DNA of 45,979 bases from a bacterium (GTDB lineage: Bacteria; Pseudomonadota; Gammaproteobacteria; Nevskiales; OUC007): positions 1 to 45,979 of the forward strand of contig JAAFAL010000007.1 in NCBI GenBank assembly GCA_018222345.1. The letters are read 5' to 3'. A program made the translations under genes and the position numbers. The stretch's first letter is position 1. Each line of letters begins with the position of its first letter. A model generated the notes under the pieces. That model saw nothing but the letters and a program-made list of their open reading frames with translations. It was not told the DNA's origin and searched no databases. Shown here piece after piece: positions 15,812 to 28,131 of the stretch.

Positions 15812-16564
15812 TTACGAATCAAATTCTTTCGCCAGGCGCTTGCGCATTTGACGCATGTAGGCCTGCGGCGCCAAGCGCGACAGCCACCATGCCAGATGTG
15901 CAGTGGCGCCGATGCGCTGCAACGGCTTGCGCGCCAGCATGGCAGCAACAGCGCGTTGCGCAACCGCCTCAGCATCCAGCAAACCGCCACTGGTGCCGCG
16001 CGGTGTTTGCGCGGCTTGGCCGTCGCCACCCAGCGCATTCTGGGCGATGGCGGTATCGATGAAGCTGGGGCATACCATGGTGACCGAGATGCCCGCCGGC
16101 ACGAGCTCGGCGCGCAGGCTGTCAAAGTAGCCATGCAAGGCGTGCTTGCTGGCGGCATAACCGCTGCGGCCGAGCACGCCGGCGTAACCTGCTACCGATG
16201 ACACCACGCCGATGCAGCCGGCGCTGGCCTGCAGTGCGGGCAGCGCGGCGGCCACAATATTGACCGCACCCCAGTAGTTCACATCCATGACTTTGCGCAG
16301 CACCTCGGGTGCCGTATTGGCCGCCAGGCTGCGGTGGGTGATGCCGGCGTTGGCGATCACCATGTCCAAGCCGCCGTGGGTTTCGACGGCGGCTTCGACA
16401 ACGCGGTGGCAGGCAGCGGCATCTGTCACGTCCAATGCGTGGCCCGCTGGCGGCGGCTTCAGGTCGGTTGCAACGACGGTCCAGCCGGCGTCCGTGAGCG
16501 CACGGCTCAGCGCTTGGCCCAACCCACCGGCTGCGCCTGTAATGAGGACGACCGGCACGCTCAA
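15812..16564 (-). CDS. Short-chain dehydrogenase/reductase
   Basis: This classical SDR has about 250 residues. The NAD(P) motif is TGAAGGLG near the N-terminus, ANAG is at the middle of the Rossmann fold, VVSSVAG carries the catalytic serine and YAASK the catalytic tyrosine and lysine. The C-terminal part contains PSFIDTAIA and a hydrophobic region (LAWWLSRLAPQAYMRQM), as in SDRs that act on lipids or at membranes. I chose TTG at 16564, which overlaps the stop codon of the preceding gene as TTGA; GTG at 16558 is an equal alternative. The substrate is unknown. Confidence 0.85.
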   Translation of the reverse strand: MSVPVVLITGAAGGLGQALSRALTDAGWTVVATDLKPPPAGHALDVTDAAACHRVVEAAVETHGGLDMVIANAGITHRSLAANTAPEVLRKVMDVNYWGAVNIVAAALPALQASAGCIGVVSSVAGYAGVLGRSGYAASKHALHGYFDSLRAELVPAGISVTMVCPSFIDTAIAQNALGGDGQAAQTPRGTSGGLLDAEAVAQRAVAAMLARKPLQRIGATAHLAWWLSRLAPQAYMRQMRKRLAKEFDS

Positions 16565-17250
16565 TAGTTCAGCTTGGGCTCGGCGTCGCCGCGGCCCTCC
16601 GGCGTGAGGTCGAGCAAATTCCACAACGGCCAGACCAAATCAACATGCCGCGGATGGCCTTCAACATCTGCCCAGAGCAACTCCGACGCCCAGAAATGGC
16701 GGATTTCACCGTTGCGCTTGGTAAATACATTGAGCACCGGCAGTTGCTTGTCGGCATCGTCGCCAGACTGGGCGTGGTAGTCCCGCTGATAATTGCTGCC
16801 ATGCGCCGACAACAGGCGCAGGTCGTGGTCCTGCCAGCCGCGATCTACGGCTAGCGCCTTGAGCTTGCCCGGCGGCGCCTGGCTGACGACGGCGAAGTTT
16901 GCCCGCGCTGCCACGTGCGGCGCCAGGCCGGAAAATCCATCGGTAATTGATGTGCAGGACGCGCAGGGTGCATCCCAGCCCGGCCCGTACATCAGGCTGT
17001 AGAGAATCAATGCCGCGTCGGGCTTGTCGAACAGCGCAGATAGTTTGACGTGCCGCGTGCCGCCGTCGGGCAGCAGCTCCTGGAATTCGTAATCTTCAGG
17101 CGGCGGGCCACCATCGGGCAACTTGCGGCGCATGTCGGCAACCCGCTCGATCTGCGCGCGCAGGTCGATCTCGGCCTGTAGCAACTGCTCGCGCGCAGCG
17201 CGGTAGTCGGCGCTCTCGCCCGGCAAGGCTTTGTTGTGCAGTGGTGGCAT
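16561..17250 (-). CDS. DUF899 family thioredoxin-like protein
   Basis: It matches the DUF899 pattern: DYRAAREQLLQAEIDLRAQIERVADMRRKLPDGG, then DYEFQELLPDGGTRHVKLSALF, the CASC-bearing stretch MYGPGWDAPCASCTSITDGF and a late WP-rich end. These proteins have a thioredoxin-like fold; their function is not known, and C-x-x-C here may be redox active. The start at 17250 removes a non-family leader that extends to 17340; GAG stands 6 nt before it. About 229 residues. Its stop overlaps the SDR start. Confidence 0.8.
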   Translation of the reverse strand: MPPLHNKALPGESADYRAAREQLLQAEIDLRAQIERVADMRRKLPDGGPPPEDYEFQELLPDGGTRHVKLSALFDKPDAALILYSLMYGPGWDAPCASCTSITDGFSGLAPHVAARANFAVVSQAPPGKLKALAVDRGWQDHDLRLLSAHGSNYQRDYHAQSGDDADKQLPVLNVFTKRNGEIRHFWASELLWADVEGHPRHVDLVWPLWNLLDLTPEGRGDAEPKLNY

Positions 17251-17348
17251 GGCGGTCTCGGCCCCAACCCGGTCCGGCAAACAGCCTGACAGCGTATCGA
17301 CTTGGCCGCCCGCCCGCCAGCGGGGCTGACGAGCGGGCATGCGATGCC

Positions 17349-18041
17349 TCAGTCAATCAGATTGGCCTGCGTCTGTTCGGTGTAAGCCTGCAGCCCGAAA
17401 TGCCCATAGGCAAAGGTATATGTGGCAGTTTCGCCAGCGATACGGCTGCTATGCACGCCGCCAACATTGCACGTGCCCGACGAGCACACCACTTGATCCT
17501 GATACGACTTGATGGAATACACCCGGTCGGCCAGCGGTTTACCGTACAGCCAATCCAGGAACGGGCTGGATACGCTCAGGCCCCAGTAGCCACAAGTGCT
17601 GTTTTGCACGTTGTACGGGTAGGCACCGCAGGACCACAAGCCGCGGTACGCACCGGCCACGCCAACAAAGGCATCCACGTCGTCGTCAACACCCAGGTCA
17701 ACAATCTGCTTGGCGGCCAGAGTGACGCCCATGGAATGGCCGATGACGTCGATCTTGCCGCTGCATGAGCCGGCAATGGCGTCCTGGATGGCATTGCGCA
17801 CCGGGGTTTCTTCCCACCCACTGTGGTTGTTGCAGGCCGGACAACTCTTGTAGCCCCAATTGGGCAGGTACAGGTCGCTGCTGGAATAACCGCGCGAGTA
17901 CAGCTCGCTGACGGTGTTGTCCCAGTCGGACGTATAGCCGGCATTGCCGTGCACCAGCACCACCGGATCCTTGCAGGCCCAGGCCCAAGCGGGCGCAGCC
18001 AGCAGGGCCAATGCGGCCAGAATGTGTTTGCTTGTTTTCAT
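17349..18041 (-). CDS. Secreted lipase, class 2 / PhaZ7-like alpha/beta hydrolase
   Basis: This 230-residue exported esterase has a signal peptide (MKTSKHILAALALLAAPAWA), the oxyanion segment DPVVLVHGNAGYTSDWD and the nucleophile elbow IGHSMG (Ser103). The segment VGVAGAYRGLWSCGAYPYNV recalls the extracellular PHB depolymerase PhaZ7 and class 2 lipases, and a late histidine is in YGHFGL. Several cysteines (CPAC, SCG, CSSGTC) suggest disulfides outside the cytoplasm. The ATG at 18041 follows GAGGAGA. It lies downstream of the symporter gene and is a distant relative of the lipase at 20.2-21.7 kb. The substrate (triglyceride or polyester) is inferred only. Confidence 0.85.
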   Translation of the reverse strand: MKTSKHILAALALLAAPAWAWACKDPVVLVHGNAGYTSDWDNTVSELYSRGYSSSDLYLPNWGYKSCPACNNHSGWEETPVRNAIQDAIAGSCSGKIDVIGHSMGVTLAAKQIVDLGVDDDVDAFVGVAGAYRGLWSCGAYPYNVQNSTCGYWGLSVSSPFLDWLYGKPLADRVYSIKSYQDQVVCSSGTCNVGGVHSSRIAGETATYTFAYGHFGLQAYTEQTQANLID

Positions 18042-18125
18042 CGTTGTCTCCTCGATGTTGTTGTCATCCATGATTGACGCGACAGGCTCTGATGGCCCTT
18101 GGGCGTCAGTGCAATCAGAAAAGGG

Positions 18126-19592
18126 TCAGGCGTTCATCACCGCCTTGATGTCGTCGGGCAAGTTGCGTGGTGACGTGGCAAAGCTCACGCCGATAAACAC
18201 GATGAAGCTGGCCACGAAGCTCACTGCGGCGCGATACACGTGCCCCGGCAGCAGCTCGGGCAGCCAGCCCATGGCGTTGTTCAGTTCCAGCAGCAATTGC
18301 AGACTGACGCCCACGATCAGGCTGGCGATTGCGCCGGCCGTGGTGGCGCGCGCCCAGTTCAGCCCCAGGCCCAGTGCAGGCGCCAAAGCCGCGGCAAACG
18401 TACCCCAGCCAAAGATGCCGAGAATGGCAATCAGCTGGCCCGAGAACACCGCCACCAAACCGCTGGCCACGGCCAGCAAGACGGTAAAGATGCGCCCCCA
18501 TTTGAACTGGAAGTCGGCGCTGGTCTCGCGGCCAAAAGCCATCGGCAGGTCGCGCACAAAGGCCGCGGCGCCAATGTTCAGGAAACTGTCGGCGGTGCTC
18601 ATCGACGCCGCCGCCACACCGGCAAAGAACACCCCGGCCAACAGGCTGGGCGCGTACTGCAGCATGAACAGTGGCGCCGCATCGTCCGGGCTGGCCAGGC
18701 TGATGTCGCCAATATCGGCCAGATAGCGCATCACCGTGCCCACGCTCAACCACACCAGGCTGGTGACCATGGCGGCGGCAGCGGCAACCACGGCGCCCCA
18801 TTTCATGCGCCGCGGCTCGCGGATCATGTAGAACTTGTGGGCCACTTGCGGCTGGCCGAGGATGCCCAGCGAAAACACGAAGTACCAGCCAATCACCACG
18901 CCGGGCCCCAGCCCGCCCCAGGGCGACACCCAGTCCGGATTATTCGCTGCGATGACCTGCGTCATGTTCGGCAGGCCGCCGCCCACATCAATGGCCAGGT
19001 ACGCAGTGATCAACGCCGCCAACAACATGATGCCGCCCTGCACCACGTCGGTATAAATGCCGGCAATCATGCCGCCGGCCGTGGCATAGACCGCCACGAT
19101 GGCCACGCCCAGCGCCACACCCATCCACAGCTCGATGCCGAAGATCTGCCCCAGGATCACGCCCATGGCCAGGGTTTGCGTGGCGAGGTAACCAACCACG
19201 CCGAGCAAGATGGCGATAGCCGACAAGCCGCGCGCGAGGTTCGAGTCATAGCGCGCATGGATGGCGTCCGGCACGGTCATCATCGGCCGCACCGCAGCCA
19301 GCAGGCGCATGCGCTTGGCCAGCATGTACCAGGCCAGCGCAAAGGACACCGCGGCCGGGAAGGTGAGCATCAGCGTGCCCATGCCAAAACTGTAGTGAAT
19401 GCCCGGCCCGCCAATAAACAGGAAGCCGCTCATGGCCGACGACATCGTCGCCAGCGCAATGGCCCACATTCCGACGCCTTTGCCGGCGACAAAGTAGTCC
19501 TCGGAGGTTTTGGTCTTGCGTGCCGCCCATAGGCCGATGGCGATCATGCCGGCAAAGTAGATCGCTGCAATGGTGACGATGGTGGCGTTCAT
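18126..19592 (-). CDS. Sodium:solute symporter (SSS family)
   Basis: This 488-residue inner-membrane carrier has about 13 hydrophobic segments. The opening IAAIYFAGMIAIGLWAARKTKTSEDYFVAGKGVGMWAIALATMSSAMSGFLFIGGPG is the SSS signature, with the ATMSSAMSG region near the sodium site. VYATAGGMIAGIYTDVVQGGIML and FFAGVAAASMSTADSFLNIGAAAFVRDL are the two other family signatures. It resembles organic-acid and pantothenate members, but substrate cannot be read. The gene lies behind lipase, ligase and membrane-protein genes, so a carboxylic acid released by the hydrolases is the best guess. Confidence 0.92.
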   Translation of the reverse strand: MNATIVTIAAIYFAGMIAIGLWAARKTKTSEDYFVAGKGVGMWAIALATMSSAMSGFLFIGGPGIHYSFGMGTLMLTFPAAVSFALAWYMLAKRMRLLAAVRPMMTVPDAIHARYDSNLARGLSAIAILLGVVGYLATQTLAMGVILGQIFGIELWMGVALGVAIVAVYATAGGMIAGIYTDVVQGGIMLLAALITAYLAIDVGGGLPNMTQVIAANNPDWVSPWGGLGPGVVIGWYFVFSLGILGQPQVAHKFYMIREPRRMKWGAVVAAAAAMVTSLVWLSVGTVMRYLADIGDISLASPDDAAPLFMLQYAPSLLAGVFFAGVAAASMSTADSFLNIGAAAFVRDLPMAFGRETSADFQFKWGRIFTVLLAVASGLVAVFSGQLIAILGIFGWGTFAAALAPALGLGLNWARATTAGAIASLIVGVSLQLLLELNNAMGWLPELLPGHVYRAAVSFVASFIVFIGVSFATSPRNLPDDIKAVMNA

Positions 19593-19617
19593 GCGCGCAC
19601 CGACGGACAGACTTGAC

Positions 19618-19704
19618 TGTCATTGCGAGCAACGCGAAGCAATCTCGTCACCTTGGCGGAACATGACGAGATTGCCGCGGGCGCTGCGCGCCCTCGCAAT
19701 GACA
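19618..19704. repeat. Palindromic repeat, copy 4
   Basis: This 87-bp copy has perfect ends TGTCATTGCGAG and CTCGCAATGACA and inner arms GCAATCTCGTCA and TGACGAGATTGC. It lies inside the catabolic operon, between the 144-residue membrane protein and the symporter, where it may lower downstream expression or stabilise the upstream mRNA. Confidence 0.9.
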
Positions 19705-19725
19705 TACTTGTGTTGTTTCGTGGGC

Positions 19726-20160
19726 TCATTGCTTCTGATCCCGAAACTGCTCGATTGCTTCCCAATCGGCATCCGACAACACATGGCGATCAAACAAGAA
19801 CGCGTAAGGCAGCGTCACCAACAGGAACGGCGCCGGCCACAGCAGGTAAACCGCCGCTGCCGTGGCCTCGGTGAAACCAAACATCAGGCGTGTGGCGTCA
19901 TTGCTGGCAGCGTGCATGAGCGCAAACGCCAGCAACCAGACCACCAGCGCTGCAATCAGCCAAGGTTTGAACGGGCCCAGCCGGCCCTGCCGGCGCGCAC
20001 CCAAGGCCAGGCACAGCGTCAGCACCAGGCTCATACCCCAGGCAAACAACATGGTCATGCCCGCCAGCATGGTGATGCCCGTCATCAAGAAGGCAACGCC
20101 CAGTAGGCCCACCAGTTGGTCGGTGCCGCGGTCGGCAGTTTGTTGAGTGCGGGTGGTCAC
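19726..20160 (-). CDS. Small integral membrane protein, function unknown
   Basis: I do not recognise a family for this protein. It is 144 residues with four hydrophobic segments (about residues 15-36, 38-55, 66-87 and 100-120), a basic loop ALGARRQGRLGPFKPW and an acidic C-terminus (DADWEAIEQFRDQKQ). It starts with GTG inside the stop codon of the lipase gene (GTGA) and is followed by the symporter gene. Small membrane partners encoded before SSS carriers are known for some members, so an accessory role in transport is plausible but unproven. Confidence 0.7.
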   Translation of the reverse strand: MTTRTQQTADRGTDQLVGLLGVAFLMTGITMLAGMTMLFAWGMSLVLTLCLALGARRQGRLGPFKPWLIAALVVWLLAFALMHAASNDATRLMFGFTEATAAAVYLLWPAPFLLVTLPYAFLFDRHVLSDADWEAIEQFRDQKQ

Positions 20161-21686
20161 CGGCCTTTCTTCCGCAGGCCTTCGTAGATCACCGGCGCCT
20201 CCGGGTCGAGTTGGCGCAGCAAGGTATTGCGCGCTTCGAGCAATTCAAGACTAATGTCGAACTCGCGCGTGACTGCTGGCGAGGTCTTGCCGTTGGGCGA
20301 GATGGCCATGGCGGTCAGCGTGACCGGGCCGGCGATGTAGATGGGGTCGGTGTAAAGCGGGCTGCCGCTTTCGATCGGCGTGCCGCTGGTGTTGTAAACA
20401 ATGTAGGCGTCGGGGTCGTCCGACTCCAGCGTCACCCGCTGCGGGTGCTCGAACACGCCGCCAACGGGGGTGAAGCGCAGCGTGGGTGCCGGGCGCTCCG
20501 GCGCATCATCTTTTGCACGCTTGAAGCGCTCGATACGGCCAGGCAGCTTGGTTTGCGCGTTGTAGGCATAGCAGGTGTACAACACGTCAGGAGCCATCTC
20601 CACTGTCGGGACGGCGGCTACGTCTGGCCCCGGCAGGCTGCCGTCATTGGTGCAACGCAGCGTGGCGGCATCCGAATCGGGTTTGATGACCTTGTTCATC
20701 CGGATGATGCCCGGGCGCTCGGCCGTGAAGTCGGGTTTCGGCCCCTTTGCCAGCCAGTCGATCATGGCATCCATGGTTTCCGGTTCGCGCGGCAGTTCCA
20801 GGTGGCCGTAGTTGGTGCCGTGCACACGGTTGTAGGGCAGGTTGTAAGCGCCTTCCAGCGCACCGCTGTCCTCGTTGGGTTTGGGGAACAGCACATCGCC
20901 CCAGCCGGTGCCGTCGTACAGCGTCATGTAACGGGTCGGGCCGGGTGTTTCGTCGCCGCGGTTGAGTTGCTGGAGCCATTCGCTGTTGGGGTAGAGCTCC
21001 CAACTCACACCGCGCTGTTGGCCGCGGGTGTCGTTCCAGGCCGTCCACACGCCGTCGCTGGCGCCAGCGGTGCCGATGAAGCTGCGCACGCGGTGGTAGC
21101 TGTTGGTTTGCTTCATCCACTGCCGTGTCAGGGTCACGCCCAGGCTGTGGCCGATGATATCGACCTGATGCACGGTCTTGCCGGTCTTATCGGTGAGATA
21201 ATTCGTCACGCTGTTGACGATGCGCTCCAGGCTAGGCACCGACAGGTCGTTGGAATCGAAGTAGCGAACGTTGTTCCAGCCATACGACAAGGCCCACAAC
21301 TCGTCGCCGCTGTAGCCCTGTTGCATGAAGTATTGGCGCGGCCCGTTCCAGTAGGCGGCCGACACCGTGTTGCCGTGTACGAAGATCACGGGGACGCGAT
21401 TGACCCCGCCGCCACCGCCACCCCAGCCAGGCATCGGTTGGTCGGTTTCGTGCGAGATCGGTGGCTGAAAATCGGCGGGGAAGTCGTGCTGGCGTGGCGC
21501 TTCCAGGCCAATCGCCGGGAACAGAATCTCGCGTGGGGCGCAGGCGGCGAGCAACAACACTGTCATCGCGAGTGCCAAAGGCGCGCGGCGATCTCGTGAC
21601 GCGGGTGCCGACGTGTCGAGATTGCCGCGGGCGCTGCGCGCCCTCGCAATGACAGGGGAACTTGGGAGTCTTGCATTCATCATCAT
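20157..21686 (-). CDS. Lipoprotein lipase/depolymerase with chitobiase-like C-terminal domain
   Basis: This 509-residue envelope hydrolase has a long N-region, then the hydrophobic stretch APLALAMTVLLLA and lipobox LAAC (Cys49). The alpha/beta-hydrolase domain (about 95-330) has VIFVHGNTVSAAYWN, the nucleophile elbow IIGHSLGV (Ser181) and a candidate catalytic histidine in NYGHLELP. Residues from about 400 to 485 (FTPVGGVFEHPQRVTLESDD, then IYIAGPVTLTAMAISPNGKTS) form a CHB_HEX_C-like beta domain, often found in extracellular enzymes. The hydrolase part resembles class 2 lipases and PhaZ7. The ATG at 21686 overlaps the preceding stop as ATGA. Residues 11-42 are encoded by a palindromic repeat copy. 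Confidence 0.88.
   Translation of the reverse strand: MMMNARLPSSPVIARARSARGNLDTSAPASRDRRAPLALAMTVLLLAACAPREILFPAIGLEAPRQHDFPADFQPPISHETDQPMPGWGGGGGGVNRVPVIFVHGNTVSAAYWNGPRQYFMQQGYSGDELWALSYGWNNVRYFDSNDLSVPSLERIVNSVTNYLTDKTGKTVHQVDIIGHSLGVTLTRQWMKQTNSYHRVRSFIGTAGASDGVWTAWNDTRGQQRGVSWELYPNSEWLQQLNRGDETPGPTRYMTLYDGTGWGDVLFPKPNEDSGALEGAYNLPYNRVHGTNYGHLELPREPETMDAMIDWLAKGPKPDFTAERPGIIRMNKVIKPDSDAATLRCTNDGSLPGPDVAAVPTVEMAPDVLYTCYAYNAQTKLPGRIERFKRAKDDAPERPAPTLRFTPVGGVFEHPQRVTLESDDPDAYIVYNTSGTPIESGSPLYTDPIYIAGPVTLTAMAISPNGKTSPAVTREFDISLELLEARNTLLRQLDPEAPVIYEGLRKKGR
21561..21654. repeat. Palindromic repeat, copy 5, inside a lipoprotein gene
   Basis: This 94-bp copy has ends TGTCATCGCGAG (one change from the consensus) and CTCGCAATGACA and inner arms GCGATCTCGTGA and TCGAGATTGCCGC. 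Unlike the other copies it is within a coding region: it supplies codons 11-42 of the lipase lipoprotein, including the basic residues before the hydrophobic core and the first part of that core. Confidence 0.88.
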
Positions 21687-22894
21687 GGCGCCCAGAACAA
21701 GTGAACAAGCCGAAGCTCCAGATACGGCGACGCTGAAACAGCGCCGGCCTCCTGCACGGCAAACAACTCAGCATCCACCGTCGAGACACTATTGTCCGGC
21801 CCGCATGGCTGGCTCAGGCAGACGTCATACGTGGCGGTGAACTGCCCGCCCCGACCACCAACTGGCTGCGCCACGCGCATCTGCAACACGCTGGACGTGC
21901 GATAGACGTAGTAGATACCCATGGTGAGCAAGCGGCCACGAATGCCGTTGTCGCTATAGGGGCCTGGGCGCGGGTTTAGAAAGAATTGATCCGACGCCGG
22001 GTTGTCGCACAACTCCTGGCTGATCACTTCCAGGCCCAGGTTGTTATTGGTGTTGTCGCAGGCACTTTGCGGCGACAGCGGTTGGTCCTTGAAGTTGACG
22101 GTGAGTTGGTCGTAGTGGTTCGACCCCACCGACTCGCGGTAGCTGTAGCCGATATCGACGAACCAGTGCTCGGAGAACTTCCAGGCAAAGTTCATCTCCA
22201 GGTTGCGGTAATTGGCAATACGCGTCGGCGTCAGGCCGCCAAAGCTGGGCTCGTCGTTGTTGTCGTTGAACTGGTAGGCAAAGGTGCCGTCGATGTAAAG
22301 GCGGCCCCACAACTCGGCGTGCCATGCGAACTGCGGGATGTAGGTCCAGTAATTGGTGCCGATGTTCAGCGCGGCGTCGGTGTCGTAGTCGCCAATCGGG
22401 AACTTGACGGTGGTGGCAAACAGGCCATTGAACTTCAGCGGCCCCCAGCGATGCTCCTTGCCGTAAATGCCGCACAGGCCGAAGAAATCACCAATGCCGT
22501 TGGCGCCAGGCCGGTGCCCGAACAAACGAACCCGGGCGGCAATGTTGCCGGTGTTCTGCTGATAACCGAGCACGCCGATGCCGCGACAAAATTGGTTGCG
22601 GTCCTTGAGGATCGGCACGTTGGTGTCGCGGAACACATTGCCGACCCACAGGTACTTGAACAGGCCTAGCGCCGCATCCGTGCTGTCACCCGCGGGCACG
22701 AACGGCCGGCCGAGTTCGATCTCCTCGCCATCGCGGTCGTAGATTTCCTCAATCTCGGTGGTGATAAACGTCAGCTCGGCATAGGGGCCGGCCGGCAGGA
22801 TGGAGTATTCCGACAAATGCGGCGTAAACACGATGGCTGCATGCGCGGCTGAACAGGCGAGCATCAGCGTGCATATAAGGATTAATCGTCTCAT
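21683..22894 (-). CDS. Outer-membrane beta-barrel protein, phenol-MetA-pathway-like (second of pair)
   Basis: This exported protein of about 403 residues starts MRRLILICTLMLACSAAHA (signal peptide) and has many alternating aromatic strands ending in VHLFWAP. It resembles putative outer-membrane transporters of the phenol-degradation MetA group. FGGLTPTRIANYRNLEMNFAWKFSEHWFVDIGYSYRES shares the FGGLTPT motif and layout with the preceding gene product, so the two are paralogues. ATG at 22894 overlaps the previous stop as ATGA; the lipase start overlaps its own stop. A role in taking up hydrophobic products is inferred. Confidence 0.72.
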   Translation of the reverse strand: MRRLILICTLMLACSAAHAAIVFTPHLSEYSILPAGPYAELTFITTEIEEIYDRDGEEIELGRPFVPAGDSTDAALGLFKYLWVGNVFRDTNVPILKDRNQFCRGIGVLGYQQNTGNIAARVRLFGHRPGANGIGDFFGLCGIYGKEHRWGPLKFNGLFATTVKFPIGDYDTDAALNIGTNYWTYIPQFAWHAELWGRLYIDGTFAYQFNDNNDEPSFGGLTPTRIANYRNLEMNFAWKFSEHWFVDIGYSYRESVGSNHYDQLTVNFKDQPLSPQSACDNTNNNLGLEVISQELCDNPASDQFFLNPRPGPYSDNGIRGRLLTMGIYYVYRTSSVLQMRVAQPVGGRGGQFTATYDVCLSQPCGPDNSVSTVDAELFAVQEAGAVSASPYLELRLVHLFWAP

Positions 22895-24132
22895 CGCCGT
22901 TCGCACCCCACGCAGGTAAAGGTGTCGCCTTCGCCAAACTGGAAGCGGGCTGACACGGTGAACCGGTCGGTGGCAAATACCCGCGCCGGGCCGTAGGCAT
23001 CGACGAACACGGTCTCACCGTCGCTGGTCATGCAGCCTGTTGCGCCCACGGTGCAGCCCGGCGGCGTGCGGTTGGTATAGGGCAGATCGAACTGGCCGCT
23101 GCGGCCGGCGGTCGGGTGTGTCCATTGCAGGCCCAATTGCCAGCGCTGGCCGGCGAACACGTCCAGCGCCAGGCCCATGGTCTGCAACTCGGTACCACCA
23201 TCGGAATAAATGCCGGTGGACGGGAAGTTGTCGCTGTTGGGCGGCGGCTCGGGTGGGTTGGGTGCAAACAACACCGGCGTGTACTGGTTGGAATCGCCAC
23301 TGCGGTCGTAGTAAAACGCCGTCAGAAAGAACCGGCCGCCCAATTGCTGAGCCAGGCTCACGTCGAACCAGGTGTCGTCGCCCTGCTGTGTGGGCGTCAG
23401 GCCGCCGAAGGCTGGGTCTTGATTCTTGAGATAGGCGCGGCGGCCAATGCCGACATCGACAAAACTGCCCTTCCACGGCTGTGCATGCACACCCAGCACG
23501 GCGTGGAATGCCGGCGTGTTGGTGCCGGCACTGGTGGGTGCATCGCGGTCATAGCTGCCAAAGTTGAGGCGCAGCCCAGCCTTGAACAACACCGCCAGTG
23601 GGCTGCCCTGGCGGGTGCGCCAATTGTCGGCGCCATACAAGAAGCTGCCGCCCTCGACCGTCACATCGCCAATGCCGCTGCCTTCGTTGCGCAAGTCGTC
23701 AGCGTTGGTGCTCGCATCATCGCTATCGTCGGCGATAAACGCTGCCAAGGGGCCTTCAGTACGCGTGTCGGCATAGCGCAGTTGCACACGCAGCAGATGC
23801 GTGGTGCTGGAGATGAACGGTATGTCGTAGTCCTCGAACAAGGGCAGATGCCAGGTCAGACCTGCAACCACATCCGTGCGCGGGAACTTGGTCTGGCCCG
23901 GCAAGGTGGGCACCGCGCTGTCGCGCTCATTACCCGCGGCGTCGAAGCTGCTGTCGCGGGTGTCTCGCTGCACCGCCAAGTCGCCATACTGGCCGGGATA
24001 CAGCGGCATGTAGCGCGCGAAGCGCGGCGATGGCTCGGGCACGTCCTGCGCTGCGGCCAGTTGCGCCACCAGCAGCGACACAACGGCAAGCACTAGCGCG
24101 GCGGCGTCAAGCGGCCGATTTCGAGTCAACAT
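22891..24132 (-). CDS. Outer-membrane beta-barrel protein, phenol-MetA-pathway-like (first of pair)
   Basis: This exported protein of about 413 residues has the signal peptide LTRNRPLDAAALVLAVVSLLVAQLAAAQ. The mature part has strand-like repeats (VAGLTWHLPLFEDYDIPF, FLTAFYYDRSGDSNQY, FTVSARFQFGEGDTF) and the shared motif FGGLTPTQQGDD. A C-terminal CVGC pair and C-x6-C in CTVGATGC may form disulfides. ATG at 24132 has GGA 8 nt upstream; 24141 is the alternative. Both overlap the end of the ligase gene by 26-35 nt. Same operon and likely same job as the following paralogue. Confidence 0.7.
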   Translation of the reverse strand: MLTRNRPLDAAALVLAVVSLLVAQLAAAQDVPEPSPRFARYMPLYPGQYGDLAVQRDTRDSSFDAAGNERDSAVPTLPGQTKFPRTDVVAGLTWHLPLFEDYDIPFISSTTHLLRVQLRYADTRTEGPLAAFIADDSDDASTNADDLRNEGSGIGDVTVEGGSFLYGADNWRTRQGSPLAVLFKAGLRLNFGSYDRDAPTSAGTNTPAFHAVLGVHAQPWKGSFVDVGIGRRAYLKNQDPAFGGLTPTQQGDDTWFDVSLAQQLGGRFFLTAFYYDRSGDSNQYTPVLFAPNPPEPPPNSDNFPSTGIYSDGGTELQTMGLALDVFAGQRWQLGLQWTHPTAGRSGQFDLPYTNRTPPGCTVGATGCMTSDGETVFVDAYGPARVFATDRFTVSARFQFGEGDTFTCVGCERR

Positions 24133-25609
24133 GTTGGTCATCCAATGCAAAGCTTGTAATGGCGCGTGCCTTGAGCGCCGGTTTGTCGATTTTTCCGGCG
24201 CCGGTCTTGGGCAAGGCATCCATGGCCAAAACGTGATGCGGAATCTTGTAGCCGGCCAGTTGCGGCTGCAGGTGGGCCTTGAGGGCGCCATGGCCCAGCC
24301 CAGCCGGTGCAATGGCGGCTACGCCCACTTCGCCCCAGTGCGGATGCGGTACGCCGAACACCGCCACCTCGGCAACCTGCGGGTGAGTGGCGATGGCGGC
24401 CTCGACTTCGGCCGGGAACACGTTCTCGCCGCCGGAAATGAACATCTCCTTGCGGCGCCCAACGATGGTGAACAAGCCCTGCGTATCTTGTCGCGCCAGG
24501 TCGCCGGTCCACAGCCAGCCATCACGCAGGGCCTTGGCAGTTTCGGCTTGGTTGCCAAGATAGCCGGCGAAGACGTGCGGGCCAGCAAGCGTCAATTCGC
24601 CTACCTCGCCCAGCGCGACCGGTGTGCCGTCAGCATCGCGCAGCACGGCTTGGGTGTTCAGCATCGGGCGGCCCACCGATTGCGGTTGGTTGGCGGCCTC
24701 ATCGGCGGAGATTGCAAAGCAGTTCACGCCGGCCTCGGTGAGGCCGTAGCCTTGGCGGAAGCCGATGCCGCGCTCAGCGAAGCGCTGACGCAATGCCTCG
24801 TCGCAAGCTGCGCCGCCGGATATCGCGAAACGCACGGCATGCAGGTCGGCGGACTGAAAATCAGGGTGGTCAGCCAGCATGCGGTACATGGTTGGCACCA
24901 TGAACAACGCGCTGGCGCGGTGCGTTGCCACGGCGGCCAAATAGGCGCCAGCATCAAACCCATCCATCAGCACAACCCGGCCGCCAATGGCCAGCAACGG
25001 TGTCGCCAAAACATTGATGCCCGCGTGAAACGCTGGCGAGGCCTGGACGACGCAATCGTCTGGTTCTAGCCCCCAGGCGGCTACGGTGTTGTCGATATTG
25101 GCGTCGATCTGGCGCCGCGGAATCATTGCCGCCTTGGGTGTGCCAGTGCTGCCGCCGGTCAGCAGCAGCATGGCAATGCGCTCCGGGGCGCGGTCATCAG
25201 CCGGTGGGCGGCCACTGCCCACGTCGGCAAGTAGTCGCTCGTAGGCATCGAGCGCGACGGGTGCCGGCGTGCTGTCGGGCAGTAGCGGCTTGCAGCCGGC
25301 ACCCACCAGCACCACCTTAGGTTTTATCACCGCCAGTATTTGGGCCTGCTCGGCAGCGCTTAGCCGGGTGTTGAGCGGCGCGTAACAGGCGCCCAACCAG
25401 TCCGCCGCAGCAATCAGGTCAAGATGCGCAATGTGGTTATTGGCCAGAATGCTAACCGCGTCGCCTCGGCCGACTCCCTGCGCGGCCAGCCACGTAGCCA
25501 ACGCCGAAGCACGCTGGGCCAGCTCGCCATAGCTGAGCCAACACCCGCGCCAGAACACTGCGGGGCGTTGCCGCGGCTGCGCGTCGTAACGGTCGATCCA
25601 GGCCGTCAT
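24107..25609 (-). CDS. AMP-dependent acyl-CoA synthetase/ligase
   Basis: This ANL-superfamily enzyme would activate a carboxylic acid to its CoA thioester with ATP. The AMP-binding P-loop is MLLLTGGSTGTPKAA; QGYGLTEAG is the A5 motif; GWLWTGDLARQDTQGLFTIVGRRKEMFISGGENVFPAEVE contains the ATP-binding aspartate and hinge; the C-terminal catalytic lysine is in LPKTGAGKIDK. From the ATG at 25609, which overlaps the preceding stop as ATGA, it is 500 residues. The acyl substrate (fatty, hydroxy or aromatic) is unknown; neighbours suggest acids released by the secreted hydrolases. Confidence 0.93.
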   Translation of the reverse strand: MTAWIDRYDAQPRQRPAVFWRGCWLSYGELAQRASALATWLAAQGVGRGDAVSILANNHIAHLDLIAAADWLGACYAPLNTRLSAAEQAQILAVIKPKVVLVGAGCKPLLPDSTPAPVALDAYERLLADVGSGRPPADDRAPERIAMLLLTGGSTGTPKAAMIPRRQIDANIDNTVAAWGLEPDDCVVQASPAFHAGINVLATPLLAIGGRVVLMDGFDAGAYLAAVATHRASALFMVPTMYRMLADHPDFQSADLHAVRFAISGGAACDEALRQRFAERGIGFRQGYGLTEAGVNCFAISADEAANQPQSVGRPMLNTQAVLRDADGTPVALGEVGELTLAGPHVFAGYLGNQAETAKALRDGWLWTGDLARQDTQGLFTIVGRRKEMFISGGENVFPAEVEAAIATHPQVAEVAVFGVPHPHWGEVGVAAIAPAGLGHGALKAHLQPQLAGYKIPHHVLAMDALPKTGAGKIDKPALKARAITSFALDDQHVDSKSAA

Positions 25610-26619
25610 GCGGCGCCCCACTGAACGCAAACCGCATTCCATACGTAACCGATGCCAGCGGCGACCAGAAGCGCGTGATCATCGCGCTTGAGCGTGCCGG
25701 CATCACGCGCCAAACACAGCGACAAGATCTGATCGACTTGGCCGAGGTGGCCGTAGTCGCTGAGGTAAATGGAGTGTGCGTGAGGGATTTGCAGACGGCG
25801 CAGCACCTCATCATGCGCGCTGCGCTTCATGTGCAACATGGCCACATGGGCGATGTCGCTAGTGCGCAGTTCGCTACGCGCCATGGCATCCTCCATGACG
25901 CCAACAAAGTGTTGCAGCGAGCGCTCTTCAAGCCGCGCCTTCATGCCCGCCGGGTCGGGCACTTGCAGCCGATATTCGTGCACATTGTCTGGGGTCAGCG
26001 GGGCGCGGGTTCCGCCCACCGGCACGATGACGTCCTCGGAGAAGCTACCGTCGGTGCGGATGGCGCTACCCAGAATCGTGTGCCCTGCGCCTTGCCGCTG
26101 CACAACTGCTGCACCGCCCCCCGCGCCCAGGTTGAACAGAAAGCGCACATTCGGGTCGGTGTAATCAATCAGGTCGCAATTGCGGTAGCCGCCGGCAATC
26201 AACACCGTGTTGACCGAATCGTCGGCAACGATCAAGTCGCGGGCCTGCTTTAGCGCCAGCACCGCAGTGCCACACTTCTGGCCCAGGTCGTAGGCCCAGG
26301 CGCGCGTCGCGCCCAGGTCGTGGGCCAGCTTGATGCCGGAAGTCCACACCGGATAGTCCTTGTGTTCCTCGTTGATCGAGATCACGACGTCGATATCACT
26401 GGCGCTTACGCCTGCGTCGGTCAATGCCACCTCGGCAGCGCGTACACCCATGGCCACGGTGTGGTCGCCTGGCCCCGGCACCGGCTTTTGGGTGATTCCG
26501 AGCTTGTCGGTGACCACCCACTCGGGTAGCCCGCTGGCCTTGGCGATGTCCGCCGCCGTCATGCGGCCATCCGGCAGGTAGGTGCCCAAGCCGGTGATAT
26601 GTGCTTGCACCACTGTCAC
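25606..26619 (-). CDS. 3-oxoacyl-ACP synthase III-like (thiolase-fold) enzyme
   Basis: The 337 residues have the FabH fold: ITGLGTYLPDGRMTAADIA at the N-terminus and the nucleophile Cys116 in DLGQKCGTAV. His263 in MLHMKRS corresponds to the catalytic histidine. The usual Asn motif (YGNTSAAS in FabH) is DYGHLGQVDQ here, with His291 in its place, so the chemistry may differ from the decarboxylating condensation of FabH. It starts with GTG overlapping the TetR stop and is coupled to the acyl-CoA ligase. That context suggests acyl-CoA handling in a catabolic route rather than fatty acid initiation. Condensation, thiolysis or acyl transfer are all possible. Confidence 0.82.
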   Translation of the reverse strand: MTVVQAHITGLGTYLPDGRMTAADIAKASGLPEWVVTDKLGITQKPVPGPGDHTVAMGVRAAEVALTDAGVSASDIDVVISINEEHKDYPVWTSGIKLAHDLGATRAWAYDLGQKCGTAVLALKQARDLIVADDSVNTVLIAGGYRNCDLIDYTDPNVRFLFNLGAGGGAAVVQRQGAGHTILGSAIRTDGSFSEDVIVPVGGTRAPLTPDNVHEYRLQVPDPAGMKARLEERSLQHFVGVMEDAMARSELRTSDIAHVAMLHMKRSAHDEVLRRLQIPHAHSIYLSDYGHLGQVDQILSLCLARDAGTLKRDDHALLVAAGIGYVWNAVCVQWGAA

Positions 26620-27239
26620 CGCGGCGCCATCCCATGTTCGAGCAGGCGCATGATCTCGTCCACCACGGCCTCAGGCGCCTTGCGGCCCTCCCACACGGCA
26701 TAACGCAGGCCAAGGAAGTGGCCAATACCCATGATGGCCCAGGCGCGGGTTTCACCGTCGCCAGGCAGTAGTTCGCCGCGCGCGGCGGCGGCATTCAACG
26801 CTGCGGCATAACCCTCGGCAATACCGCGGTAATAGCCACGAAACAGCGCCTCATCGACAAACTGTGATTCCTGGACGATGCGGTACAAGTGCGGATGCTC
26901 GTGTACATAACGCACAAACGCCTCTAGGCCGCGGCGCTCGGCGTCCATTTGATCCGACGTGGCGGCAACCGCCTGCGCCATGGCGCGGCGTACACCGGCG
27001 CCAATGTCCTGCACCAAATGGCGGAATGCGTCTTCCTTGCTTTTGAAATACAGGTACCAAGTGCCCTGGCCAACTCCGGCCTCGTTAGTAATGCCCGCCA
27101 CGGATGCAGCGTGATAGCCCTTTTGGCCGAACTCGGCTTCGGCGGCGGCCAGCAAGCGGGCGAGCGTCGCGCGGCCGCGCGATGTCGCTGGCGGCTTGAG
27201 CGGCACGACCTTTTCGGCACTTTCGGTCTGCTTGGACAC
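26616..27239 (-). CDS. TetR-family transcriptional regulator
   Basis: This 207-residue repressor-type protein has its helix-turn-helix near residues 28-72 (RLLAAAEAEFGQKGYHAASVAGITNEAGVGQGTWYLYFKSKEDAFRHLV pattern), a textbook TetR N-terminus, and a large alpha-helical ligand domain. It starts with GTG at 27239 behind GGGAG. It is the first gene of the minus-strand operon and divergent from the PhaB-like gene. A perfect 11-bp palindrome lies between, so it probably represses itself, its operon and the divergent reductase, released by an acyl-CoA or similar ligand. Confidence 0.92.
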   Translation of the reverse strand: MSKQTESAEKVVPLKPPATSRGRATLARLLAAAEAEFGQKGYHAASVAGITNEAGVGQGTWYLYFKSKEDAFRHLVQDIGAGVRRAMAQAVAATSDQMDAERRGLEAFVRYVHEHPHLYRIVQESQFVDEALFRGYYRGIAEGYAAALNAAAARGELLPGDGETRAWAIMGIGHFLGLRYAVWEGRKAPEAVVDEIMRLLEHGMAPR

Positions 27240-27309
27240 TGTGTCTCCCGCGCAATGGCGACGGCCGGCTTGAAGCTGGCTCTGTTGATTGGAGCCACCC
27301 GCAGGCCAA

Positions 27310-27320
27310 ACCTGACAGGT
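27310..27320. promoter_or_regulatory. Probable TetR operator
   Basis: ACCTG-A-CAGGT is a perfect 11-bp palindrome. It overlaps the -35 of the rightward (phaB-like) promoter and lies just after the predicted start of the leftward (tetR) transcript. One bound dimer could block both. Confidence 0.55.
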
Positions 27321-27340
27321 GATTCATGTTTCAGTAAACT
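27312..27340 (+). promoter_or_regulatory. Probable promoter of the PhaB-like gene
   Basis: CTGACA (27312-27317) and TAAACT (27335-27340) are 17 nt apart. The coding start is 53 nt beyond the -10. Confidence 0.5.
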
Positions 27341-27364
27341 AGCCATCACGCACTGGGCTGTCAA
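27336..27364 (-). promoter_or_regulatory. Probable promoter of the tetR-led operon
   Basis: On the minus strand a perfect TTGACA (27364-27359) is followed after 17 nt by TAGTTT (27341-27336). Its -10 overlaps the -10 of the opposing promoter, so the two promoters compete for the same DNA. Confidence 0.55.
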
Positions 27365-27393
27365 GCCTTTTCACAACACAAGAAACACTCCGC

Positions 27394-28131
27394 ATGAGCA
27401 AATCATCACTCGCGATCGTCACCGGCGGCACCGGCGCCATTGGCACCGCCATCTGCGCGGCTCTACATGCCGATGGCCACAGCGTGGCCGCCATTGGCCA
27501 CCCCAGCGAAGCCGAGAAAATCGACACTTGGCGCAATGGCCTGGCGTTCGAGGCCCATGTTTATCTGGCCGATCTGGCCGACTTCGAGGCAACCACGGCT
27601 TGCTTAGCCAGTATCGAGGCCGAACTCGGCCAAGCTGCCGTGGTGGTTAATGCAGCAGGCATCACCCGCGACGCGCCGCTGAAGAAAATGGATGCGCAAG
27701 CCTGGCGCGCGGTGATGGGCGCGAATCTCGACAGCGTGTTCAACGTCACACGGCCACTCATCACAGCGATGATCGAAAATGCTCATGGGCGCATCATCAA
27801 TATTGCTTCCATCAACGGCCAGAAGGGCCAGTTTGGCCAGACCAACTACTCGGCCGCCAAGGCCGGCATGCATGGCTTCACCATGGCGCTAGCCCAGGAA
27901 GTAGCCAAGCACGGCATCACGGTCAATACGGTGTCGCCGGGATATATCGACTCGCCAATGATCCGGGCGGTACCGGAGCCGATTCGCGACAACATCCTCA
28001 GCGGCATTCCGGCCGGACGCTTCGGCACGCCCGAGGATATTGCGCGGGTGGTGGCCTTTCTCGCAGCGCCCGAATCAGGCTATCTGACGGGTGCGAATAT
28101 TCCAGTGAATGGTGGGCAGTTCATGCACTAG
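27394..28131 (+). CDS. phaB: Acetoacetyl-CoA reductase-like SDR (PhaB type)
   Basis: This 245-residue classical SDR has TGGTGAIGTAI (cofactor loop), VNAAGITRDAPLKKM, the catalytic region IINIASINGQKGQFGQTNYSAAKAGMHGF (Ser, Tyr, Lys) and the end YLTGANIPVNGGQFMH. INGQKGQFGQTNYSAAKAG is characteristic of PhaB, the NADPH acetoacetyl-CoA reductase of PHB synthesis; FabG is the alternative. No PHA synthase or thiolase gene is adjacent. Divergent transcription from tetR suggests it interconverts 3-hydroxyacyl- and 3-oxoacyl-CoA in the catabolic route encoded opposite. Confidence 0.85.
   Translation: MSKSSLAIVTGGTGAIGTAICAALHADGHSVAAIGHPSEAEKIDTWRNGLAFEAHVYLADLADFEATTACLASIEAELGQAAVVVNAAGITRDAPLKKMDAQAWRAVMGANLDSVFNVTRPLITAMIENAHGRIINIASINGQKGQFGQTNYSAAKAGMHGFTMALAQEVAKHGITVNTVSPGYIDSPMIRAVPEPIRDNILSGIPAGRFGTPEDIARVVAFLAAPESGYLTGANIPVNGGQFMH

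Follow-up and report, generated by a model that had tools for sequence, protein, structure and literature searches.

Described systems to which the locus reported here can be compared include PhaZ7, the native-polyhydroxybutyrate (PHB) depolymerase of Paucimonas lemoignei (NF050060; PDB 2vtv, 4brs), the outer-membrane channels of the COG4313 type, which have been proposed to function in the uptake of hydrophobic molecules (PMC4493636), the PRK06840/NF005308 family of 3-oxoacyl-acyl carrier protein (ACP) synthases, and the classical 3-hydroxybutyrate utilisation route (BdhA). The locus is a set of ten genes at positions 17,349 to 28,131 of a 45,979-nucleotide stretch of DNA (the window; contig JAAFAL010000007.1, assembly GCA_018222345.1) from a bacterium of the order Nevskiales. 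Gene identities, conservation, an operator-like repeat, protein folds and links to other genomic contexts were established computationally. The gene content and context indicate, with high confidence, that the locus serves hydrolysis of an ester, import of the carboxylate and its activation with coenzyme A (CoA). With an even degree of confidence, we propose that it is a catabolic operon, repressed by TetR, for an extracellular ester of a 3-hydroxy acid, most likely a polyester of the polyhydroxyalkanoate (PHA) type, its oligomers or 3-hydroxyacyl esters; we infer the substrate, the direction of the reactions and the inducer from the features described below.

A preliminary description, made from the letters of the window, had listed these ten genes; all were present where it placed them and with the families it had named (Pfam and NCBIfam assignments TetR, ACP_syn_III, AMP-binding, Phenol_MetA_deg twice, Lipase_2 twice, SSF and adh_short). 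In the proposed pathway, lipase 1 (20157..21686, minus strand; PF01674, 59.6 bits, plus a C-terminal CHB_HEX_C_1 domain, PF13290, 47.8 bits), as an outer-membrane lipoprotein, and lipase 2 (17349..18041, minus strand; a secreted single-domain Lipase_2 protein, PF01674, 72.5 bits) would hydrolyse the extracellular ester. Both outer-membrane barrels, i.e., barrel 1 (22891..24132, minus strand; Phenol_MetA_deg/COG4313 type) and barrel 2 (21683..22894, minus strand; COG4313-type channel), would carry the products across the outer membrane, and a sodium:solute symporter (SSS; 18126..19592, minus strand; PF00474, 167.1 bits, cut-off 22.8) with its companion, a membrane protein of 144 amino acids (19726..20160, minus strand) without a Pfam or NCBIfam family, would take the carboxylate into the cell, a step that a major facilitator superfamily (MFS) carrier would perform in relatives. 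An AMP-forming acyl-CoA ligase (24107..25609, minus strand) would form the CoA thioester. The divergent gene sdrB (27394..28131, plus strand) encodes a short-chain dehydrogenase/reductase (SDR) resembling PhaB, i.e., an (R)-3-hydroxyacyl-CoA dehydrogenase or acetoacetyl-CoA reductase, which would act in reverse to convert (R)-3-hydroxyacyl-CoA to 3-ketoacyl-CoA. In what is the least certain step, an enzyme with the thiolase fold resembling beta-ketoacyl-ACP synthase (KAS) III, and belonging to NF005308/PRK06840 (25606..26619, minus strand), would cleave or otherwise process the 3-ketoacyl-CoA. The TetR protein (26616..27239, minus strand; PF00440, 52.4 bits) would sense the acid or acyl-CoA at a single operator.

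Overlaps were found at every junction from tetR to the 144-residue gene, as had been described, but not all are of the ATGA/GTGA kind that had been claimed for the whole chain. Five are, i.e., tetR/KAS (GTGA, 26619-26616), KAS/ligase (ATGA; ligase start 25609), barrel 1/barrel 2 (ATGA; barrel 2 start 22894), barrel 2/lipase 1 (ATGA, 21686-21683) and lipase 1/144-residue gene (GTGA, 20160-20157), while the ligase and barrel 1 frames overlap by 26-35 bp and share no ATGA. The symporter and lipase 2 genes lie on the same strand and are joined less tightly, as gaps of 133 nt (144-residue gene to symporter, containing a REP-like repeat copy at 19661..19704, minus strand) and 84 nt (symporter to lipase 2) precede them. 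On the same strand, 3' of lipase 2, a DUF899 gene and another SDR gene (15812-17340) were observed; in the relatives examined, neither was found to adjoin the operon.

Upstream of tetR, the sequence contains a predicted operon promoter (TTGACA-17-TAGTTT; 27336..27364, minus strand), followed by TGAAACATGAATCACCTGTCAGGTTTGG (27306..27333, minus strand), which holds an inverted repeat of the type ACATGAC-N6-GTCATGT and was predicted as a TetR-type operator. Operator-like sites occur at the same position in six other genomes (loci L050, L051, L053, L054, L060 and L068), with a perfect copy of the inverted repeat in L051 and L053, and TTGACA or TTGACG is found at a comparable position 5' of tetR in L050 to L054 and L060. 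A search of the 3.0-Mb genome of the organism itself with the operator consensus pattern, allowing up to 3 mismatches, yielded one match, as compared to none for a reversed-pattern control. The repeat is thus best read as a candidate operator of the local TetR. A regulon extending beyond the operon was considered and rejected, since the pattern occurs just once in the genome.

Among 85 genomes of the order, which includes Fontimonas, Stagnimonas and Nevskia and in which the genome of the window was counted, lipase 1 was found at high score in 14 and an NF005308 KAS above cut-off in 12. The search for the ordered set in other genomes that had been called for in the preliminary description found tetR, KAS, ligase, barrel 1, barrel 2 and lipase 1 in this order in five further genomes (G061, G048, G056, G065 and G002; loci L050 to L054), with 40-77% protein identity, and a fragment of it at a contig end in G017 (L055). 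L051, which is the same locus as L069, belongs to the cultured Fontimonas thermophila DSM 23609. The sdrB gene is divergent in L050, L053 and L054 and lies directly 3' of lipase 1 in L051 and L052. Together, the conserved gene order and the shared operator-like repeat support the single functional unit that had been suggested. Pairwise protein identities across six genomes were correlated for KAS and sdrB (0.81) and for barrel 2 and lipase 1 (0.60); as such correlations do not hold for every pair, the idea that the genes all evolved together as a single block was rejected. Of the relatives examined, just two have kept lipase 2 (G061, 84%; G002, 70%). The lipase 1 copy at the contig end of G017 (L011/L055) contains one in-frame TGA and is possibly a pseudogene or the product of an assembly error.

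Variant arrangements were also observed. In genomes of the Stagnimonas type, tetR-KAS-ligase and barrel 1-barrel 2-lipase 1-sdrB stand at separate loci (L061-L063 and L056-L058), such that the half with the regulator and CoA enzymes lies apart from the half with the outer-membrane proteins and hydrolase; the operator was not found 5' of barrel 1 or tetR in these split loci, where tetR is accompanied by other palindromes. Nevskia-type genomes have no KAS, and in L075 and L078 the gene next after lipase 1 encodes a different SDR; that of L075, the sole one scanned, is YdfG-like and scored 400/411 bits with a 3-hydroxy acid dehydrogenase model.

The preliminary description had likened both hydrolases to the group of PhaZ7 and class 2 lipases and had taken a placement clearly outside this group as grounds for abandoning its reading. 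The present comparisons place them within it; both exceed the PF01674 gathering cut-off of 20.3, and the predicted structure of lipase 1 (mean pLDDT 72.8, with larger values in the core) matched PhaZ7 as its leading VIA-align 2 hit (Z 20.9, 215 residues, 3.3 A, 21% identity), with class 2 lipases including lipase A at Z 19.7-19.9. Foldseek again placed the PhaZ7 and class 2 lipase groups near the top. The nucleophile motif of lipase 1 (GHSLGVT or AHSLGVT) is invariant, as are the candidate Asp and His of the triad, which were placed by position. Lipase 1 is probably a lipoprotein, as close relatives retain its lipobox (..AC-P-RE, where the mature part starts). A REP-like palindrome lies in frame at the 5' end of lipase 1 (21566-21686), between the ATGA overlap and the lipobox; the repeat copy itself (21611..21654, minus strand) is 95% identical to 19661-19704, and an alternative internal start is present at 21566. 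L054 and L070 seem to hold other repeat-derived sequence (of the ..WVPAFAGTT.. type) at this place, so part of the lipase 1 signal peptide may be derived from repeats.

Both barrels scored above the PF13557/COG4313 cut-off of 22 (barrel 1, 40.7 bits; barrel 2, 57.6 bits), and the barrel 2 model (pLDDT 80.1) matched Pput2725 (PDB 4rl8) over 267 of 268 residues (Z 26.1, 2.8 A, 15% identity), with FapF next (Z 20.6). The symporter is kept in L050 (81%) and L071 (67%), in both of which it adjoins the 144-residue protein (56% and 45%, respectively). After the hydrolase or sdrB gene, the window, L050 and L071 thus carry the 144-residue protein and the symporter, and L069, L070, L072 and L054 carry an MFS carrier. 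This exchange of one carrier for another, along with the COG4313 type of the barrels, supports the role in import that had been proposed for the barrels and the symporter.

The sdrB product scored 324.7 bits with TIGR01829 (cut-off 302.1) and is the only protein of its genome above this cut-off (the next scored 245 bits), in agreement with its earlier identification as a PhaB-type reductase; with the PhaB equivalog NF042966 it scored 184.4 bits, below the cut-off of 436. In 9 of 10 cluster genomes the SDR of the cluster is likewise the best TIGR01829 match (7 above the cut-off and 2 just below it), and no copy elsewhere passes. The genome of the window (98.4% complete) gave no match to PHA synthase (PF07167), and a PHA storage cycle was rejected on this basis. 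None of 14 genomes, including this one, contained a TIGR01963 3-hydroxybutyrate dehydrogenase at E <= 1e-60. As the genome has neither PHA synthase nor this dehydrogenase, and sdrB is its sole PhaB-type copy, the operon reductase is probably catabolic, oxidising CoA esters.

The KAS protein scored 460.7 bits with NF005308 (cut-off 315). Its Cys112, His259 and His287 (alignment A1 numbering) are invariant in the 12 Nevskiales sequences; the Cys and the first His align with those of FabH, and the position of the FabH Asn is occupied by His (His287) in all NF005308 members aligned, such that the operon KAS has Cys-His-His in place of the canonical Cys-His-Asn triad. This active site, like the operator-like repeat and the wider spread of the KAS and ligase pair, goes beyond what had been described before. 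The pair is rare, i.e., it was found in 3 of 369 genomes in a class sample (the present one included), 9 of 247 in an acidobacterial phylum sample and 6 of 246 in an actinobacterial sample. In acidobacterial contig L110, the order is tetR, TonB receptor, FabG/PhaB-like SDR, FabH-like enzyme, hydrolase, PhaZ7, NF005308 KAS (455 bits), ligase, hydrolase and SSS; here PhaZ7 has a near-complete score (400/450 bits), the KAS frame overlaps its stop codon, and KAS and ligase follow it directly. Another acidobacterium (L189) has tetR, hydrolase, KAS, SDR, hydrolase, ligase, SSS, hydrolase and TonB receptor, and an actinobacterium (L190) has tetR, hydrolase, KAS, ligase and a Lipase_2 enzyme. Two Nevskiales loci without lipase 1 show further combinations, with KAS, ligase, a PhaB-like SDR, a carboxylesterase and a TonB plug protein in L059, and, in L060, KAS and ligase separated by an enoyl-CoA hydratase (ECH), with a MaoC protein farther on. 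In other Acidobacteriota and on haloarchaeal plasmids, KAS adjoins genes for liv-type ABC transporters, several with an alpha/beta hydrolase or ligase; plasmid copies of KAS were haloarchaeal only (38-43% identical) and lay beside such transporters in the three examined. These varied contexts suggest that KAS and ligase form a reusable core placed on differing ester hydrolases and importers.

Some details of these loci were also noted. On the haloarchaeal plasmids (L153, L154 and L155), the NF005308-like gene ends a liv-type ABC operon, with ligase, hydrolase and MaoC genes upstream in L155. In several Acidobacteriota, the NF005308 gene has close to it a gene for a further FabH-like enzyme, with 65-71% identity to that of L110 (L110, 7468-8532; L184, 14216-15241; L188, 4241-5233).

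A number of results weigh against a polyester or other 3-hydroxyacyl ester as substrate and against a thiolase role for KAS. With the PhaZ7 model NF050060, lipase 1 and lipase 2 scored 53.1 and 51.7 bits, respectively, far from the curated cut-off of 450, and the fold matches of lipase 1 to PhaZ7 and lipase A are tied. The Cys-His-His triad is also that of the condensing enzymes KAS I/II; two actinobacterial NF005308 members (L190 and L193) keep both His and have a residue other than Cys at the nucleophile position. The genome of the window also encodes four ordinary thiolases, so that KAS need not be a thiolase. The solved structures nearest to the ligase (8weu/8wev) are those of a feruloyl-CoA synthetase and a fatty-acyl-CoA synthase. 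A strong PHA synthase was present in 1 of 10 genomes with KAS and lipase 1 as compared to 35 of 75 others (P = 0.04, Fisher's exact test, kinship ignored), but this depletion is modest, with P = 0.14 once Nevskia-type variants are included. Finally, as KAS and ligase modules occur with other hydrolases and carriers, the substrate may vary.

Part of this evidence would fit scavenging of lipids, in which the lipases act on esters of the triacylglycerol, wax or phospholipid kind, fatty acids enter through the barrels and symporter, a FadD-like ligase activates them, and SDR and KAS assist fatty-acid metabolism. The ligase, whose earlier identification as a CoA ligase is borne out by PF00501 (241.5 bits) and PF13193 (68.4 bits), has its best NCBIfam scores with long-chain FadD models, class 2 lipases are as near as PhaZ7 in the fold of lipase 1, and the genome has ordinary thiolases. 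However, an acyl-CoA dehydrogenase was not found in the clusters examined, ordinary beta-oxidation needs no (R)-specific PhaB-like reductase, and a similar KAS and ligase adjoin the near-full-score PhaZ7 in the acidobacterium; we thus regard lipid scavenging as unlikely, although it is the alternative that fares best.

An aromatic, cinnamic or terpenoid ester, from which esterases would free an aromatic or branched acid for import, CoA ligation and shortening, is a distinctly less plausible substrate. COG4313 channels have been tied to aromatic degradation (TcpY and the neighbourhood of Pput2725; PMC4493636), feruloyl-CoA synthetase is among the nearest solved relatives of the ligase, the MFS carrier of relatives is nearest to an aromatic acid/H+ symport subfamily (below cut-off), and the ECH and MaoC enzymes lie near KAS in one relative; yet genes for ring hydroxylases, ring-cleavage enzymes or demethylases were not identified in the clusters examined, and PhaZ7 heads the fold matches of lipase 1. 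Biosynthesis or signalling, in which ligase and KAS would make a beta-keto or butenolide-type product that the SDR reduces, an ScbR-like TetR senses and the lipases edit as an ester, is very improbable, since the resemblance of the KAS III fold and Cys-His-His site to condensing enzymes and the best NCBIfam match of TetR to the ScbR family (55.9 of 150 bits, far under the cut-off) are set against the recurrent presence, alongside these genes, of SSS, MFS, liv ABC and TonB importers and of several hydrolases, and no exporter or ACP was seen.

For the catabolic operon acting on an extracellular 3-hydroxy acid ester, the nature of the acid part is an evenly balanced call, for which the PhaB-like SDR, the link to PhaZ7, the YdfG-type substitute and the missing dehydrogenase speak. 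A thiolytic role for KAS is put forward tentatively and seems somewhat doubtful. The broader proposal, that NF005308 proteins are degradative 3-ketoacyl-CoA thiolases of the FabH fold with a Cys-His-His site, which together with a partner ligase form the core of interchangeable loci for the use of extracellular esters and polyesters in Proteobacteria, Acidobacteriota, Actinomycetota and haloarchaea and offer 3-hydroxy acids a CoA-first route around 3-hydroxybutyrate dehydrogenase, is more speculative still. If the proposed function is true, the locus would be self-contained, leading from an extracellular hydrolase to a central metabolite for a bioplastic-like ester, with F. thermophila DSM 23609 as a culturable carrier; both the NF005308 "3-oxoacyl-ACP synthase" family, which is sparsely distributed, and tandem COG4313 channels would gain a function open to testing, and its genes could serve as markers of polyester degraders in metagenomes.

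In the open-access literature searched, we found no described homologous locus, in line with the earlier statement that none with this gene set was known, and no experimentally described function for NF005308. Compared to PRK06840/NF005308 3-oxoacyl-ACP synthases, of which the operon KAS is a member by score, this enzyme is proposed to act on 3-ketoacyl-CoA. The BdhA route degrades the same kind of acid, but there a dehydrogenase acts first and acetoacetate is then activated, whereas the operon would activate first and then oxidise the CoA ester, in a genome without a TIGR01963 match at the threshold used above. Lipase 1 shares with PhaZ7 the alpha/beta-hydrolase fold, the Ser-Asp-His site and export, but differs in its low model score (53/450 bits), its probable lipoprotein nature and the additional C-terminal CHB_HEX_C_1 domain, and PHB hydrolysis is here only putative. 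Similarly, barrel 2 resembles the COG4313 channels (Pput2725, TcpY and SphA) in fold and in PF13557 score, while the operon differs from their described settings in that it carries two different members in tandem, among other neighbouring enzymes.

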